Origin: Russula earlei
Lineage: Eukaryota; Basidiomycota; Agaricomycetes; Russulales; Russulaceae
Direction: 5' to 3'
Assembly (NCBI GenBank): GCA_025769875.1
Contig: JAGFNK010000132.1
Location: forward strand, 1 to 64,000
Length of the DNA: 64,000 bases
The stretch's first letter is position 1; every line of letters starts with the position of its first letter. The notes below the pieces were generated by a model. It saw only the letters and a list, made by a program, of their open reading frames with translations, was not told the DNA's origin and did not search any database. The position numbers were made by a program, and so were the translations under genes. This document shows, piece by piece, positions 3,790 through 43,139 of this stretch.

Positions 3790-4195
3790 GGGATTGGTCT
3801 AGTGTCGCTGTGCGTGCTGACTCAGGTTTGGCTGTCTGGATGGCCATGATGTACAAGCTTTCATGTAACGTTCCCTCACAAATTAGTTGGTTTCCATCGT
3901 ATATTCCGCATGTCTCTCCCTGGAAGTGCAATTCCGCCCCATGTTGAGCAAAATGGGAGACTGATAGAAAGTTCCCTTTGAGGTCCAGGATGTACAGGAC
4001 ATCGCGGAGTATTGCGGTACTCCGCGCGCCATTTGTGTGCATCTGGACTTGCACTTGTCCGGCTCCGGTGGCGGTTATTGCGCTATCGTTGCCTAAGACG
4101 ACTTGAATGGGTGATGCGAGTGGGGTAAGATGCGTGAACCAATCGCGGTGGGGTGTCATGATGCGCGAGGCTCCGGAGTCAAGGAGCCAGCCTGT
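3790..4195 (-). pseudogene. Copia protease and pre-integrase remnant
   Basis: Minus-strand reading gives WLLDSGASRIMTPH at about 4160-4195. The DSGAS is the aspartic-protease active site of copia elements. VLGNDSAITATGAG and DVLYILDLKGNFLSVS follow, the usual order in copia retropepsins before the pre-integrase zinc region. The frame is open for ~170 residues and runs downstream of the gag zinc knuckle, as in a single copia polyprotein. It lies in a truncated element and is not expected to work. Confidence 0.75.
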
Positions 4196-5276
4196 CTCTG
4201 AGATTGGCAGCTCGGAGCTGCTCCTGAGTCATGGCCACGCGGATTGGCTCATCTACGACTGCCTGATATGATAAGGTGCTGTTATGTGGAGTTGGGACGT
4301 ATGCGATGGCAGTGCTGGCTGGTGGCTGGTCTGCGTGCGTCACTGGTATGTCGGGCGCGCTTGTGCCAGTCCTAGCAGGCGTGGGTGTTGCTGCATTGTG
4401 CGCGCTTGTGCCAGTCGTTGCTGCTGCTGCTGCTGCTGCTGCTTTATCCTGTGGTTTCCCATGAATTTTCCAGCATTCAGTTGTGTTGTGCCCCCTGCAT
4501 CTGCAGTGGGTGCACTTGATTGTGCTTTTTTCACTCTGCACTTCCCGGTCCTTCCCCTTTTGGGGTGCCTTTGCAATGTGAGATGTGGCCATGTCACAGG
4601 TCGATCAGATCCGACGCTCCTCGTGGAGGATTCGGTCCGTGACATGCTCGGCCAGTTAGATGGCTGGGCGGCGTCGAGTGGAGAGTGGCCTTGAGATTGG
4701 CCATCTTTTCCGGTAGTGCGAGGATTAGCATCCCGATGAGGACTTTCTCGTCTATTGGGTAACTGAGTCTCTTGAGGGTTCGGGCAGCGTGCAGCAGTCG
4801 AATGATTTGAGGAGCCATGGGTTCACTTTTGGAGAAAGTGACCCGGTATAGGTCCTGTCAATAAACGTGCGACTGCAGTTGCTCGCCCTTCCCTGCAAAA
4901 TGTTTTGCAAGCTCGTCCCAAGTATTTTTGGCTCCAGCAATGCCTAGGGCAGTGTCGAGAGTGTGCCCTTTTAATGTGAGTAAAATGTGGGCATGCTGCT
5001 TCGTGATCTTTCTGCTCCCAGTTGGCGAAGCCTGCTCGGGTCATTGCTGAGGTCCGGTTTTGAGTACGTCTGTTTTAAGATTTCCATTAAGCTGTTTACT
5101 TTGAATACTGCCTCTATTTCAGCTTTCCATTGTGTGTACGCGACCGTGCCACCTTCGAAGAGTGGTCCATCATAACCGTGTTGGCCGCCCATGTAAGTTT
5201 TTCCCATGGCTCCTACGGTGGGAGCGTGGCTGCCTCTCGAGGGCACGACGTTTGCGGTTGCTGTGGGGGCGCTCAT
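4179..5276 (-). pseudogene. Copia gag with CCHC zinc knuckle
   Basis: The gag starts near 5276 on the minus strand, about 70 bp after the LTR F end. Its N-terminal part (YTQWKAEIEAVF) and its middle part (EKVLIGMLILALPEKMANLK) resemble copia gag. The frame is then broken. At about 4490-4520 is a CX2CX4HX4C knuckle (CTHCRCRGHNTTEC), the nucleic-acid-binding motif of retrotransposon capsids. A run of alanines encoded by a CTG/CAG repeat follows. Because frames change at least twice, the gene is a pseudogene. Confidence 0.75.
4418..4443. repeat. CTG/CAG trinucleotide repeat
   Basis: About eight perfect GCT units lie inside the copia gag frame. On the minus strand they are read as GCA/AGC/CAG depending on frame, and in the gag frame they give about nine alanines. 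Such a run is prone to replication slippage. Confidence 0.85.
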
Positions 5277-5345: not shown

Positions 5346-5597
5346 TGTTGGAGCTATAGGGATGATAGCTCAGTCTTGTGTGTAAAAGACTGTATTGGTT
5401 AGGTTATCTAACCTATAGGGATGATAGCTATGTACAGCATTAGCTTTAAAGGAGTGTAAAGGAATGTGTAGTACTGACCTCAGTCTTGTGTGTAAAAGAC
5501 TGAGGAAATGAACACGATAACTAAATTATTCTAATTATTTACACGTACAGGTCCAGATTGTCCATTCGCGCGGCACTAAGCGGCTGCACGTCCAACA
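5346..5597 (-). mobile_element. Copia 5' LTR, family F copy 1
   Basis: This 252-bp LTR, in minus orientation, starts TGTTGGACGTGCAGCC at 5597 and ends CTCCAACA at 5346. The primer-binding site and gag follow immediately, so it is the 5' LTR of the minus-strand copia element. It is inserted in a gypsy pol gene that resumes at 5598. Its 3' half carries the X-intron-Y-spacer-XY layout described separately. Confidence 0.85.
5354..5502 (-). repeat. X-intron-Y / XY duplication in LTR F copy 1
   Basis: Minus-strand order is as follows. X1 (5479-5502, 24 nt) is the hairpin CAGTCTT...AAGACTG. The intron-like segment (5428-5478, 51 nt) starts GTCAGTAC, contains GCTAATG and ends TACATAG. Y1 (5413-5427) is CTATCATCCCTATAG. 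A 20-nt spacer (5393-5412) follows. Then X2 (5369-5392) and Y2 (5354-5368) are joined with nothing between them. X1 and X2 are identical, and Y1 and Y2 are identical. The downstream XY is therefore the exact spliced form of the upstream part. Confidence 0.9.
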
Positions 5598-11516: not shown

Positions 11517-11676
11517 CTTGCACCCTCATCAACCATGTCATCATTCCTCTCAACCTTTCATTGTTTCCAAGTCCACTGCCTCATGCCCTCAATGACCACA
11601 TCATTGTCTTCTTTGTCCTTTCATTGTTTCCCAGTCCACCACCTTGTGAACTCATCAACTGTCTTGCACTCCTGCT

Positions 11677-12186
11677 TGTTGAGATTATCATTGATTTGGT
11701 GTGTTACCACTACCCTGGGATGTTGTGATGTAATCACAGCTCAGATGTGTTGACACATTGGTTACATGGACTGGGCATCACCGGTTTAGCTCAGGCGCAT
11801 GACATGCCAGATCACACAGACCAGCTCAGCTCATATGCTGAGATCTGTGTTAGTTACAATGATAAGTTAATTGATGACAATTGGTAGCTACCAATGACTG
11901 ATCCTTTATGATACAAGTTGGTAGTTATGATTACTTTGCTTAGAGACACTTTTGCATATTTAAGAGGCACTCAATTAGCTAGATCGCTTTAGTCTTGTCT
12001 TACACAATACTGAAGTGAGTACTTACTGTTTCCTATCTTATCTCTCACATCTAATCACATGTTGTAGATATCTTGTGATAGGTATTACTGAATTACAGTC
12101 TTGTCTTACACAATACTGAAATATCTTGTGATAGATCTTAAGGATCTTATCACTGTTATCATGACCTGCACCCATCTGCTTCAACA
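11677..12186 (+). mobile_element. Solo LTR family E copy 1, TSD CTGCT
   Basis: A 510-bp LTR starts TGTTGAGATTATC and ends CTGCTTCAACA. CTGCT is duplicated at 11672-11676 and 12187-12191. A TATA-like ATATTTAAG lies about 30 nt before block X1 at 11991, placing the likely transcription start at X1. Confidence 0.9.
11991..12134 (+). repeat. X-intron-Y / XY duplication in LTR E copy 1
   Basis: X1 is at 11991-12014. The intron-like segment (12015-12067, 53 nt) starts GTGAGTAC, contains TCTAATCAC and ends GTTGTAG. Y1 (12068-12081) is ATATCTTGTGATAG. The spacer is 12082-12096. X2 (12097-12120) and Y2 (12121-12134) are directly joined. Both X blocks and both Y blocks are identical, so 12097-12134 equals the spliced form of 11991-12081. 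Confidence 0.92.
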
Positions 12187-12450
12187 CTGCTCTCAACTTT
12201 CTTTCATCACATAACAATTCTACCCCTGCTGCCCAGCCCACCCTCAACTCCCTTTCATCACATACCAATTGCACCCACACCTCTTGGCCAGCTCTCAACC
12301 CCCTTTCATCATGTCACCCTGCCATGACTAGTATGACATGTTCCTCCACCTTTCACTGTCATCACCACAGTCAGATGCAAGGGCTCAGTGCTCTGATGAC
12401 ACACAATTACTGGTATCACTATTTCATGAACTATTGTACACTACCTCTCT

Positions 12451-23387: not shown

Positions 23388-23866
23388 TGTTGAGATCAGC
23401 ACTGGCCTGAGCCCCAGGTGTGTTGTGATGCAATCACAACTCTGATGTGTTGACACGTCAGATCACCCAGACCGGGCATTACCAGCTTCAGCTCATACAC
23501 TGCAGCATGCGTTAGAGACATTGATTAGATGATTTCGGACAATCGGTAGCTAGTTACCACTGATCCTCAGACATACTTAGTGATCCATAATGGTAGTTAG
23601 CTGCACTGCACTTAGTGGCAGTCTGAGGTACTTAAGAACACCACAAAGCATGTAGATCACTTCAGTTTTGTATCAACTAAACTGAAGTGAGTACTTAGTC
23701 TATGATATCTTATTGCTCTGTACTGATAACATGTTGTAGCTATTGTCTGATAGGTACATTATTTATATCAGTTTTGTATCAACTAAACTGAACTATTGTC
23801 TGATAGATCTGCCTGCAATCTTATCATCTGCTGCTATCTAATCACACGCACTGTGCATTTTCAACA
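23388..23866 (+). mobile_element. Solo LTR family E copy 3, TSD ATGAT
   Basis: A 479-bp divergent member starts TGTTGAGATCAGC and ends GCATTTTCAACA. ATGAT is duplicated at 23383-23387 and 23867-23871. It interrupts the Plavaka transposase between the DWWW and LSDKTQLT regions. Confidence 0.9.
23662..23806 (+). repeat. X-intron-Y / XY duplication in LTR E copy 3
   Basis: X1 is 23662-23686 (hairpin CAGTTT...AAACTG). The intron-like segment (23687-23739, 53 nt) starts GTGAGTAC and ends GTTGTAG. Y1 (23740-23753) is CTATTGTCTGATAG. The spacer is 23754-23767. X2 (23768-23792) joins directly to Y2 (23793-23806). Both pairs are identical within this LTR but differ clearly from copies 1 and 2. A TACTTAAG lies ~28 nt before X1. 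Confidence 0.92.
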
Positions 23867-26418: not shown

Positions 26419-26907
26419 TGTTGAGATTATCATTGATTTGGGTGATTTGGTATGTTACCACTACCCTGGGACGTTGTGATGTAATCACAGCTCAGACGCG
26501 TTGACGTGTCGGTTACATGGACCGGGCATCTCCGGCTCAGCTCATATGCTGAGATCTGCGTTACTTACAATGATAAGTTAATTGATGACAATCGGTAGCT
26601 ACTAACGACTGATCCTTGTATGATCTTTGTTTCTTATGATGGTAGCTACTTGCAGTGTACTTAGAGATGCTCTGGAGTACTTAAGAGCGTCGTATTTCGA
26701 TAGATCACTTCAGTCTTGTCTTACACAATACTGAAGTGAGTACTTACTGTTTCCTATCTTATCTCTCGCATCTAATCACGTGTTGTAGATATCTTTTGAT
26801 AGGTATTACTGAATTATAGTCTTGTCTTACACAATACTGAAATATCTTTTGATAGATCTTAAGGATCTTATCGCTCTTATCATAACCTGCGCCCATCTGC
26901 TTCAACA
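26419..26907 (+). mobile_element. Solo LTR family E copy 2, TSD CCATC
   Basis: A 489-bp LTR starts TGTTGAGATTATC and ends CTGCTTCAACA. CCATC is duplicated at 26414-26418 and 26908-26912. It lies in a coding exon of the DUF6532-type gene. Confidence 0.92.
26712..26855 (+). repeat. X-intron-Y / XY duplication in LTR E copy 2
   Basis: X1 is 26712-26735. The intron-like segment (26736-26788, 53 nt) has GTGAGTAC, TCTAATCAC and GTTGTAG. Y1 (26789-26802) is ATATCTTTTGATAG. The spacer is 26803-26817. X2 (26818-26841) joins directly to Y2 (26842-26855). The single base that distinguishes Y here from Y of copy 1 (CTTTTG against CTTGTG) is present in both Y blocks. Confidence 0.92.
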
Positions 26908-38600: not shown

Positions 38601-41600
38601 CAGAATGACCCCACATCATTCCTCGCAACACTTACTGAGATTTATAGTGCTCTTCAACAATGGTCATTTATGCCCCAAAAGGTGAAAGGGCCGCCTCTTT
38701 CTCACTTGTCATACTGACTTCACACAGCGCAAGAGTAATGGTCCCTTGATACCCACAGGATCAATGGATGGTGCATCAATGGCCGCCGGTCCTCTTGCAA
38801 CGGACCCCTCTCCTCTTTTGACCTTCTCTACCCGAGAGCGACAGTTGAAAAGTTTCTCGAAAGGTCTGATAACCAACGCTCTCCGTCTTCTTGTGGCAGT
38901 CTCAGGCATTCTATCACAAGAGAACTATGAGAGTCTTGGCGGATTTCTTTGGCAGGGCTGCCTTACCCAAGCACCGTACGAGGTTCAAACTTCTGTGCGT
39001 TCATATTCTTCTGGAGCCAGTCTCATCAATCTTTCATTCATCACCACGGTCCAGGCTACGTTTCTGTTTATGCAGTGCGCGGAGAATGCTCCAGTCCGCC
39101 ATACTAGATCTAATTCGGACCGACATCAAGAGGTTTGTCTTTTGGACGTGATCGCTGTGCGAATAGATGGTTCAAGCATTGCACATAGTCCACAGGCTTC
39201 CCGTCGTCTCCTCGCAGCGCGACGCTTGAGTGTGATGTCCGGCTGGCGCTTTCAAATGTTGTCGCAGGACTACATTGTTGACAAGAGCCACCGGAGGCCA
39301 TTTAAACTTGCCCGGGCCCCTATGTCATTCCTGCCCACGGACATTGGTTCTAGCTTTTTTGTTTTGAGAGAAGATCTCCATAAAGGGAATTCCTCTAGCG
39401 GACAAGCTCTTCCTTTGGAACTTCGTAAGCGGCTCGCTGACATAGGCTGGACCCAGGACGAAAGTACCATGGACCAGAAGCATGAATGGATTTTGACGCC
39501 ATTCTCGCTAATCTCTGGCCAGCAGCTGGAAAAGGTGGGAGCAGGTCTTCCTACGACGATCGTGAATCGATCTCCTCAACTCAGGACTCCTGAACGTCCG
39601 CCGTCACACGTGGCAGAACCTATGTCACCAACTCCCGGAGTCAAGCGTCGACCCATCTTTGTGCCACCTCTAGTCTTAACCCTACCGGACGTTGCCTCCC
39701 TGGTATACGATGGCGATACTGGTGTTGCCAACGCTGCTCGTGTCGCGGTCATGGATTGGATGAGACATGATCCCGCTCTGATTACTAGAGCCGCGTTCGA
39801 CGCCTTATCAGCAACAGAAACTGATCTTCACCCTCCCTTTTCTGTTCTCAGAGGCTACCTCTACGCTCAGAGTGTTCTCCCTCCTGCCATGGCACATCAT
39901 ATGTTCAATCACTTAGCGGGTTTCCTCAAGTTCTCCGCTAGAGAGCGTGACGGGGAATGCGCACTCACGGGATTTGCCTATGCAGTCCCATTGCTCTCGA
40001 AACTCGTCGTGCAAGTCAACGACATGTCCCTACGGGAACTCCGGCGTGCTAAAATAGATCCCTTCTTGATTCCAACTGGGCCTCTTTCCCCGTCTGCCCC
40101 CGCCGGCTTCGTGCTTCCTCGTTCTCTGAGCGACGTCACAAGCATTTCCGATGGGGACATTAAGTATCAGCGAGACAAAGTGGTTCTTGTCCGGGTGGCC
40201 CAGAACTTGTTGTTTGCCAGCTTATTGAAACGCGATCGCCAAGAGGTCCAAGCATTTCGAAAGGACATCTCTCGTCTAGTCCTACCAACCACAGTCGCTC
40301 CATCCACGGAGCTCCGTTCTTTCCTGCCAAACAAAGAAGGAACTTCTTCATTTGCCACTGGCGCAGACGCTGAGTCTTCTGGTCTCTCCCTTTTACTTTC
40401 TAGGAGCCACGTCCTCTTGGTAACCGAGATCTTCCGTTCCTTGCCACGGCATCTCAACAGCAGGAGCGAGCTCGGCGTTCTGATTGATGGCTTGAACCAG
40501 ATATTGTTTGTCCATGGAGGGGACATCGGGATTGTCGCACACGTCCTCATCGGTGAGTTATAACAACACTCAAGCGCTCCTACACTTATTCCATCTTAGC
40601 ATTGATGACTGCCAGCGCACGCTTCCACCGGCTATTCACTTCTGGTGCAGGCTATACTCTCTTTATACCTGCGCTCTTCAAGGCCTACGCTGAGGCCGTG
40701 ACCAACGAAGGCGTGAGACGCGCCATAGAGTACAGCATAAATCGGTTCTACGCCGTCCATCAAGAGGCATTCGTCTTTCAAGTGCTCAACATGCTTTCCC
40801 AAATGGTCGTGCTCCCCGGAGTGGATGGGCCTTGGATTGCCGAACAAATATTTTTACTCCTCTCCACATTAAAAGACGACGCTCCCATACAAGCTGCCGA
40901 CACTGCTGGGATTCACGGTTCCAACAAGACGCAGGAACAGGAGGCACTAATGCTTCGCACAGCGGAGGAAGGGCCCCAGGCGTTCCTCACTCTACTGCGA
41001 AGAAGCAGTGCATCTCAAGGCGAAGACGTGGGCCTCGCAGTTCCTGATCAATATGAAGGCGGCCACTTCTCATTGGATAACTTTATCCGACTTCTTCTGA
41101 CCGTCATTGGTCATGACCCTAGTATCCGGCGCGCGGAGCAATTCCTTCGGTTGTTACGACTCTTGGCTCCACATTTCTATGATGCATCCCCTGTTGCTCG
41201 GGGTGTACTTCTGGAAGGCATCGACGCACTAACTGGCATATTTATCGCACGCAGCATTGGAAAGAGCAAGGCAGCAGAAAACTCACAGGTTCGTGTCGAA
41301 GAATCAAGTGACGCATTCTCACAAGCTGCTAGCGCGAGTATGGATGCTCTTGAGGCGGCGAAAGGTCCAAGTAACTTCATTGAGATGAAGTTTGATTACC
41401 TTTCCTTGGTTGCCGAGTTTTCAAAATCTGGCGGGACCTTTGGATTGTCGGCGTTAAGACGGATTCTCGATCTTGCGAAGATGATGTTAAGGGATTCCGA
41501 TCCCATCGGCAGGGAACGAGTGGCTTCCTTCCTCGGCACTTTCGCTCATAATGTCCTTTTACGGGATCTGTCCAACCTGGAATTGAAGCATGTTCTTGCC

Positions 41601-43139
41601 TTCCTAAACGAACTGGGCTCGATTTTCAAAGCACACGCGCGGACAACCGATTTCTCCAAGATGCTGGAAGCAGTTCTTGGACTAGTGGAGAACCCTATCT
41701 ATGCCAATCAGCCGGCGTTTTCGCTTGTGATTCATACACACTTTTGCTCGAGTGGTTTGGAGGTTCTCGAACAGCTAGTATCTGATGGCTTCGCATCTTC
41801 AACTGCCCTTCGCCCCGTGCTTGTCAGACTCTTATGTCGTGCAATACTTCTGACAGGGGCCGACGTTGTGAGCCTAATCGAGCAGCAGCCTATCACGTTC
41901 GAGTTTGTTGCTGGTATTTTGTACCCCATGGCGTTGAACCTACCGTCGGCAGCCGAAATAGCGGGCGACGCTCGGTGGATGGAGGCTTGGAGGCGGGCGG
42001 CCATCAAACGGACGTGGATTTGTCTACTTCAGCGGGCGATGCAAGCCTGTCAGAGACAAGGGTCCGCAAGCACCAGCGACAGGCCGGATAAAATTCCTCA
42101 CCCTGAGCGTAGGCGATCACAGAAGAAATCGAATGTAATGGAGAACTACCCTGCCGCAACCCTGACGATGGCGCTTCAGACCCTCAAAGTAATCGTGTTG
42201 AAGGCAGAAGATGATTTGTCTGTCGCCCTCCCGAGCATTTGGGTGCAAATGGGTCTACTCTTCAAGAATGTACTGTCTGCTGGAAATGCGAGATTCACGA
42301 TGCCAGCGCAAGGTACTTCGGTGCCATCATCTCCCCTGCAATCTCCCATGGGCTTGAAACCAAGAGCGTCAGAAGATTCTGATCTGTTATACCCTTCATC
42401 ACCACGCGCCGCCTCGTTTGATTCTCACTCTCCCCTGGTCCCACCGGGTCCCAAGCCATCCCTTATCGACTATCTACTCTGGTCGATATTGGAATTTGTT
42501 TGCCGTCGTAGATCGCCTCTCATGCTCCAAATGCGACTGTTCATACAAGAGATAACAGCCACTCTCGACGAAGAGTTCCATGCACAACAATCTCTGACGG
42601 TCCGGAATAAGCGTTTCTCTTACACGTCCGTGTACGCCAGAACGCCACAAAGGTCGGCGCGCTGGTCGAAAGCGCCTTCTCCCGAGGCCTCGCCATTCCT
42701 CACTCCTATCCCGCCACCTCGCGGGGACGTCTTTCTGACCCCACCAAAGCCGGAACGAAAGCCTGGCTACGCGAGAACACCGACTCCTAGGGGCACAGGG
42801 GTGATGGAGCCAAGAATTGTCCACCTAGGGCCCGTACAAAACCTCGATGTGTTCCGCCGATCACCTTCGCCCGGCCTCGGGGTGAGTGGGACGAAGTCGC
42901 GTAAATGGCTGATGGCTACTTCTACGACGATAAAATCAGCAAAACTCGTGCTGGCCACGTATCGCAGGGTTCGGGCCGTGCAGCGCATGATGGGATACAC
43001 TGTATTGATTCCTTCACCTGACGGTGCCGAAGGGAGTATAGATGATGTGAGGGTTTGGTCCAAAACAATAGCTTTGAATGAGATCGAGAGTGAAACTGCG
43101 GACATAATGGAGGAGTTCTGGTCGCAGGACGAGGAGTAA
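35632..43139 (+). CDS. UNC80-like large membrane-associated protein
   Basis: This is a very large multi-exon gene (roughly 2,000 residues or more). ATG at 35632 opens MDSAHNHDGPKRPR; the open frame reaches a few codons further upstream, but only through a GTG. The N-terminal ~200 residues are Ser/Pro-rich and disordered. Helical-repeat sequence follows (VITSLYNIISYHASS, LIIALSACVENATYG-type, QVRLGKLVILVELIAYIQ). The last large exon (40602-43139) holds FHRLFTSGAGYTLFIPALFK, AIEYSINRFYAVHQEAF and GPWIAEQIF, which resemble the C-terminal region of UNC80, a scaffold of NALCN-type cation channels. Fungal relatives exist, and a link to the Cch1/Mid1 channel is inference. I first considered Furry/Tao3 and dropped it because its N-terminal pattern is absent. 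Confidence 0.6.

Follow-up and report, generated by a model that had tools for sequence, protein, structure and literature searches.

Copia-type LTRs of Russula earlei combine a putative intron with an adjacent copy of its joined exons

The LTR at 11677-12186 and related LTRs of the window

The window, that is, the whole 64-kb stretch of DNA analysed, was found to contain a family E LTR (E1) with the order U3-X1-intron-Y1-spacer-X2Y2-U5, in which X2Y2 was the exact join of X1 and Y1. The X-intron-Y-spacer-XY layout of the original prediction proved exact to the base, with X (24/24) and Y (14/14) identical in the two copies. Because the LTR ended in TGTTGA and TCAACA and the 5-nt direct repeat CTGCT was present on either side (11672-11676 and 12187-12191), E1 was classified as a solo LTR with a 5-nt target duplication. 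The features of E1 and of the related LTRs in the window were as follows.

11677-12186, plus strand, 510 nt: solo LTR of family E, ends TGTTGA/TCAACA
11957-11963, plus strand: TATA-like box TATTTAA, read from the sequence, with a putative role
11991-12014, plus strand: X1, putative transcript start and exon 1
12015-12067, plus strand, 53 nt: putative intron 1, GTGAGT..CTAAT..TAG; GT in 41/41 and AG in 40/41 aligned copies
12068-12081, plus strand: Y1, putative 14-nt exon 2
12082-12096, plus strand: spacer between Y1 and X2
12082-12134, plus strand, 53 nt: putative intron 2 (spacer, X2 and Y2), GT..AG; GT in 39/41 and AG in 40/41 aligned copies
12097-12120, plus strand: X2
12121-12134, plus strand: Y2
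12097-12134, plus strand: X2Y2, exons 1 and 2 in fused form, where strong-stop DNA is proposed to land (3' R)
12135-12186, plus strand: U5, so named from the model
26419-26907, plus strand, 489 nt: second family E LTR, CCATC repeated on either side
26712-26735, 26736-26788, 26789-26802 and 26818-26855, plus strand: X1, intron, Y1 and X2Y2 of the second E LTR
23388-23866, plus strand, 479 nt: family F LTR, ATGAT repeated on either side
23664-23686, 23687-23739, 23740-23753 and 23770-23806, plus strand: X1, intron, Y1 and X2Y2 of the F LTR
5346-5597, minus strand, 252 nt: family I LTR of the same design, probably a 5' LTR, with a Pol_BBD domain downstream
5479-5502, 5428-5478, 5413-5427 and 5354-5392, minus strand: X1, intron, Y1 and X2Y2 of the I LTR

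The putative intron 1 of E1 read GTGAGTAC...CTAAT...TTGTAG, and the predicted branch A was 13 nt from the intron end. The TATA-like box expected about 30 nt ahead of X1 was present 28-34 nt before it, and the second GT..AG bracket of 53 nt at 12082-12134 was recovered as well. The F LTR of the window had the design of E with different X and Y sequences. A target repeat was looked for beside the I LTR and none was found.

A loose layout scan of both strands (X of at least 10 nt, GT..AG of 35-150 nt, Y of at least 8 nt and the fused XY downstream) identified four places in the 64-kb window, belonging to three LTR families: 12015 and 26736 in E, 23687 in F and 5428-5478 on the minus strand in I. 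The same scan found 0 places in the window in the control order, where the fused copy comes first, and 0 matches in 20 dinucleotide shuffles of the window and in the reversed window. When GT..AG was not demanded, the shuffles gave nine matches, of which the longest X+Y was 20 nt, compared with 38-39 nt in the real window. Across the fetched loci there were 92 matches of at least 24 nt, with overlapping loci counted repeatedly, against 0 in the control order.

Some other features of the window were observed. Just downstream of the solo LTR, at 12187-12311, three related units (GCTCTCAACTTTCTTTCATCA and alike) were present with 51-nt spacing. The region 249-803 on the plus strand contained a chromodomain and a Tf2-1-like SH3 domain and looks like the terminal part of an integrase of the Ty3/gypsy type. 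The best named relative of the host gene at 40557-43136 was 57% identical and came from Lactarius indigo, in line with which the genome was regarded as probably that of an Agaricomycete.

Spread of the design and the elements that carry it

All counts given here come from one genome, a 66.6-Mb assembly of 1374 contigs. The original prediction had proposed that the E copies of the genome be searched for and aligned; the layout was found in 41/41 aligned copies, which were the best matches of 835 candidates after BLAST pieces below 300 nt were dropped. Genome-wide, 274 fused-XY sites (31 nt, at most 3 mismatches) and 281 U3-X1-GTGAG sites were found, and the reversed control gave 0 for each. The H/I type was represented by 450 matches to X plus the 5' splice site and, for a single class of Y, by 120 matches to the fused XY. 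Loci with other loops, picked solely for X1 and the 5' splice site, contained the whole design in 4/4 cases, each with its own new Y. The design is not peculiar to one copy and is common to nine LTR types with different Y. These types were counted by reading, and some H/I-like types have similar X sequences and are told apart chiefly by Y; between types, Y was 4-12 edits apart.

X and Y together measured 37-38 nt in 9/9 types. The putative intron 1 was 49-53 nt long and started with GTNAGT in 9/9 types, and 8/9 contained a CTRAY whose A lay 12-13 nt from the end of the intron. The signals of a spliceosomal intron, namely GT-AG ends, a 5' splice site, a branch site and the short length usual in fungi, were thus present in the candidate intron 1. 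The putative intron 2 ranged between 51 and 59 nt, with GT in 8/9 types and CTAAC in the spacer of 6/9, all H/I-like. Among the nine types compared, no clear or fitting branch site was found in the putative intron 2 of E, F and G. In H, the final AG of this intron would be completed by the first base beyond the LTR.

A hairpin in X was considered as a shared feature and main argument and was set aside, because E itself reached only -2.2 kcal/mol (z -0.25). Among the eight X sequences folded, values of -6.8 to -8.5 kcal/mol were obtained in F, G, H, I, L119 and L121 and -4.8 in the T-form of E. X of H, I, L119 and L121 can fold into a 7-bp hairpin, the stem of which would hide the AGs between the spacer CTAAC and the AG that closes Y2. 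The fifth pair of the hairpin, by eye on the alignment, was C-G in H/I and T-A in F/G.

The elements were taken to be of the Ty1/copia type. In family F, two adjoining pieces of one locus (L048) contained gag_pre-integrs, rve, SH3_retrovirus and RVT_2 in copia order, with the integrase ahead of the reverse transcriptase in one ORF. The G elements also gave RVT_2 matches. Among the 30 RVT_2 loci with the best scores (from 150 scored rows among 1130 candidates), 22 had the F design, three had the G design and one was a variant (L050); at the other four loci fetched (L055, L063, L066 and L075) no LTR was within reach. TG..CA ends and a 5-nt target duplication were present in both E LTRs and the F LTR of the window, and a purine-rich GGGGGGA preceded the 3' LTRs. 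The E LTRs were followed by GGTTATGGGCCCTGACC, a putative primer site, which we take to resemble the half initiator-tRNA primer site of copia; a tRNA matching it was looked for in the 64-kb window, which held no tRNA. Viral contigs were searched for the design or its reverse transcriptase and none was found.

Family E may be non-autonomous, since the interior of one E element (L023) contained no long ORF by eye. Within this interior, at 3850-4650, short degenerate repeats around GCATTCTCATGCGGGC and CAGTCTCTCGACTG were seen by eye. Between two E LTRs at another locus (L030, 2457-6324), long minus-strand ORFs were present, by eye transposase-like and Ulp1-type protease-like, that is, another inserted mobile element.

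Agreement of the two copies, variable junctions and loss products

The agreement between X1Y1 and X2Y2 was examined in cassettes counted by genomic place (64 in E, 26 in F and 3 in G). Cassettes missing the fuzzy pattern were left out, for instance L032, which had lost the AG of the intron, and the truncated or rearranged L086, L094 and L100. The LTRs of one element were counted separately throughout and are not independent. Position 4 and the length of X agreed between X1 and X2 in 64/64 E cassettes (57 with C and 24 nt, 4 with T and 23 nt, 3 with T and 24 nt). The T/G site of Y agreed between Y1 and Y2 in 56/64 (TT 42, GG 14, TG 4, GT 2, GA 2), with a Fisher probability of 1.1e-8 over the 62 T/G rows. 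The r2 between the Y1 and Y2 sites was 0.58 in E, compared with at most 0.17 for 127 other polymorphic sites of the LTR; a slightly different E set gave 0.58 against at most 0.19 over 136 sites. The 127 sites include positions in the intron, spacer, X2 and U5, those between Y1 and Y2 among them. This linkage is the strongest control, because common descent by itself would tie the in-between sites together too.

The total edit distance between X1Y1 and X2Y2 was 26 in E (shuffled mean 65.0, minimum 52) and 4 in the 26 F cassettes (shuffled mean 14.7, minimum 8), and none of the 1000 shuffles made for each family reached the observed value. X1Y1 was fully identical to X2Y2 in 45/64 E and 22/26 F cassettes; 24 of the 64 E cassettes came solely from loci picked by a perfect X2 and are biased, 20 of these 24 being identical. 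The original prediction had named independent drift of the two copies as an outcome that would speak against it. Such drift was not the pattern in the 40 E places that came from LTR similarity or from the window itself, and so were not picked by X2, where X1 equalled X2 in 31 and Y1 equalled Y2 in 32. Full identity in just 25 of these 40 places counts against the model of copying proposed below, as does the disagreement of Y1 and Y2 at the T/G site in 8/64 E copies. The mismatches in E were mostly single changes in one copy, and copies with unlike Y1 and Y2 may have arisen by transfer between two different RNAs. In the F subfamilies, two X changes were present in both copies. The H/I type gave 31 fused rows on contigs C1-C81, of which 26 had X1 97-110 nt upstream and 5 had no X1 in the list; the loop was identical in 25/26 X1/X2 pairs, paired by hand.

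One old duplication of XY, followed by a 53-nt insertion into the first copy and passive inheritance, would yield the layout in one family. We regard this history as refuted for practical purposes, since variants appear in both copies at once and since X1Y1 and X2Y2 of the same LTR are mostly alike despite Y differences of 4-12 edits between types.

The end of a cDNA can acquire untemplated bases from the reverse transcriptase. In the model X2Y2 is laid down from strong-stop DNA, which would place the terminus of this DNA at the 5' border of X2. Of the 503 columns in F, the one immediately ahead of X2 varied most (C 18, T 6, G 1, A 1). It was preceded by four invariant columns and followed by two, and the base preceding X1 was C in 26/26. 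In G, the spacer/X2 junction had 20 forms in 78 copies, mostly 1-5 nt long. The form was the same in 15/17 putative LTR pairs (same strand, 3.5-5.5 kb apart), compared with a random mean of 1.9 and a maximum of 9 in 100,000 draws, as expected of a cDNA end. Three G LTRs showed 4-9 mismatches in 515 aligned columns and differed in length solely at the junction and in the T run of Y, which was T4 in both copies of L070, T5 in both copies of L071, and T4 in Y1 and T5 in Y2 of L072. The base before X2 in E (T 50, C 14) ranked 126 of 614 and was not outstanding, which counts against the model.

The position of the variable junction before X2 would also suit a genomic RNA that starts at X2, with X2Y2-U5 as an ordinary R-U5, the junction as the U3/R border and X1 as the start of a separate spliced mRNA. 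This arrangement appears very improbable to us, because the TATA-like box lies ahead of X1, none was noted by eye before X2, and the shared changes of X1Y1 and X2Y2 would be left unexplained.

Several copies had lost parts of the design. In E, 13 U3-XY sites were found, all of which were read as U3-XY-U5, and 17 Y1-U5 sites are known from the match alone. The intronless U3-XY-U5 LTRs were considered as proof of splicing and were kept as ambiguous, since a deletion between X1 and X2 gives the same product; both the 13 and the 17 places could equally be deletions between repeats. In two cases a pair of LTRs lay on the same strand and about 4 kb apart. At G000:C1205, L114 was intronless and lay by a primer site and L018 contained the introns; they are probably the 5' and 3' LTRs of one element, and the absence of introns from one LTR only points to a deletion after insertion. 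At G000:C1047, L116 and L117 were both intronless, L117 being followed by the primer site. They probably belong to one element that already lacked introns on insertion, and this points to a loss during reverse transcription.

The loss of intron 1 alone, giving XY-spacer, was found in 0 copies of E. It was present at six places in F, where 215 spacer-X2 sites match exactly. One of them, the F variant L050, had the order U3-XY-spacer-XY-U5; intron 1 was missing with base precision, and the spacer started with AT instead of GT. L050 is consistent with a transcript whose intron 1 was spliced out and whose intron 2 could not be removed. The GT-containing pattern was matched exactly by four of the five other places, so a broken GT was not needed every time. 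L050 is the sole intron-1-only loss that was read, and it could in principle come from two recombination steps. A further rearrangement was observed at G000:C161:20999-21129, where two F spacer/X2 motifs lay 106 nt apart on one strand, as if X-intron-Y-spacer had been doubled; this would fit the landing of an unspliced strong-stop DNA on X2.

The deletion products between X1 and X2 and between Y1 and Y2, together with the probable deletion after insertion at L114/L018, are what one would look for if no splicing took place and X and Y were plain short direct repeats homogenised by recombination, gene conversion or template switching of the reverse transcriptase. We give this account very little credence. 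The repeats measure just 24 and 14 nt, and yet Y1 is linked to Y2 more strongly than to the 127 other sites, in-between ones included. In the 41 aligned E copies X2Y2 was unbroken with X1 and Y1 split, the join fell on GT-AG in nine types, the junction varied ahead of X2 and not ahead of X1, and L050 had lost intron 1 alone.

A different proposal is that only intron 1 is spliced. The strong-stop DNA would then be XY-spacer-XY-U5, its extra unit would be avoided or trimmed, either by pairing across the longer match Y1-spacer-X2Y2 or through a deletion at a later stage, and the GT..AG of intron 2 would be incidental. This proposal agrees with the intron 2 of E, F and G, where no clear branch site was found, and with the six XY-spacer places in F, at least four of which match the GT-containing pattern exactly. 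We consider it unlikely, as GT follows Y1 in 39/41 E copies and in 8/9 types, CTAAC is present in six H/I-like spacers, E has no XY-spacer copy despite its 274 fused-XY sites, and in L050, the single such copy read, the GT of intron 2 has become AT.

Proposed replication cycle and known systems

The original prediction held that first-strand transfer attached the spliced 5' end of the element RNA to a 3' LTR that had kept its introns. Our analysis supports this, because among the readings found it alone explains the join on GT-AG, the shared X and Y variants, the junction in F and G and the loss of intron 1 in L050. Going beyond that prediction, the copying seems to be recurrent. We consider it quite probable, from the sequence evidence, that these are copia-type LTRs whose two-intron leader makes terminal redundancy by splicing and whose X2Y2 acts as a landing pad that restores the introns.

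In the proposed cycle, the RNA would start at X1, and removal of intron 1 and intron 2 (spacer, X2 and Y2) from its 5' end would leave X-Y-U5-primer site. The 3' LTR would have to escape splicing, which may reflect an end of transcription at Y2 or shortly beyond it, and would be polyadenylated at or after Y2. The reverse transcriptase would copy U5, Y and X into strong-stop DNA. This DNA would have no full-length match to X1-intron-Y1 and would match X2Y2 base for base over 37-38 nt, and for that reason it is predicted to land on X2Y2. Extension from there would run through the spacer, Y1, intron 1, X1 and U3. The new LTR would have both introns back, and its X2Y2 would be a fresh copy of X1Y1, overwritten at each cycle. 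On balance we also lean towards the view that the first strand transfer fits only spliced RNA; splicing would then be a licence for replication, X2Y2 would be rewritten each cycle, and the intron could be inherited without limit, serving intron-dependent expression.

Among the matches listed in the open-licence PMC literature, none described an LTR with an intron and an adjacent spliced copy, and the word "intron" is absent from a paper on ascomycete Copia elements (PMC5445492). The elements studied here resemble Ty1/copia, with its two-jump reverse transcription, in the domain order of F, the TG..CA LTRs, the 5-nt duplication and the GGGGGGA before the 3' LTRs. They differ in that the LTR carries introns and that, in the model, the two copies of the RNA redundancy come from different places of the LTR, one spliced and one unspliced. 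Retroviruses such as HTLV-1 have a splice donor in R, and the likeness is a 5' splice site within the LTR; what these viruses package is an unspliced genome, and their R is a conventional repeat. We know of no pre-spliced copy in the R of these viruses. In EVADE and Ogre, the introns are internal and outside the LTR. The passages of PMC12786077 on these two describe LTR elements with introns used for subgenomic RNAs and name no spliced copy beside the intron, whereas here such a copy is present in the LTR. According to the same paper, Ty intron reporters lose the intron of the retroelement RNA in the new copy (PMC12786077); in the present elements, in contrast, the intron is kept.

A motive for the retention of the intron, in a transcript that has none elsewhere, may be offered by the intron-dependent expression of some basidiomycetes, which is known from host genes and transgenes, not from retroelements. 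Intron removal lowers mRNA in Cryptococcus (PMC3744415), and efficient transgene expression in Ganoderma needs an intron (PMC7017817). Reverse transcription of RNA is expected to lose introns, and the design would keep one by means of a landing site that copies the spliced exons. This would give LTR elements a novel way around the end-replication problem and would tie splicing to replication. RNA ends and untemplated bases would also stay on record, in readable form, across hundreds of copies in the genome, and the design makes testable how elements stay expressed in hosts with intron-dependent expression.
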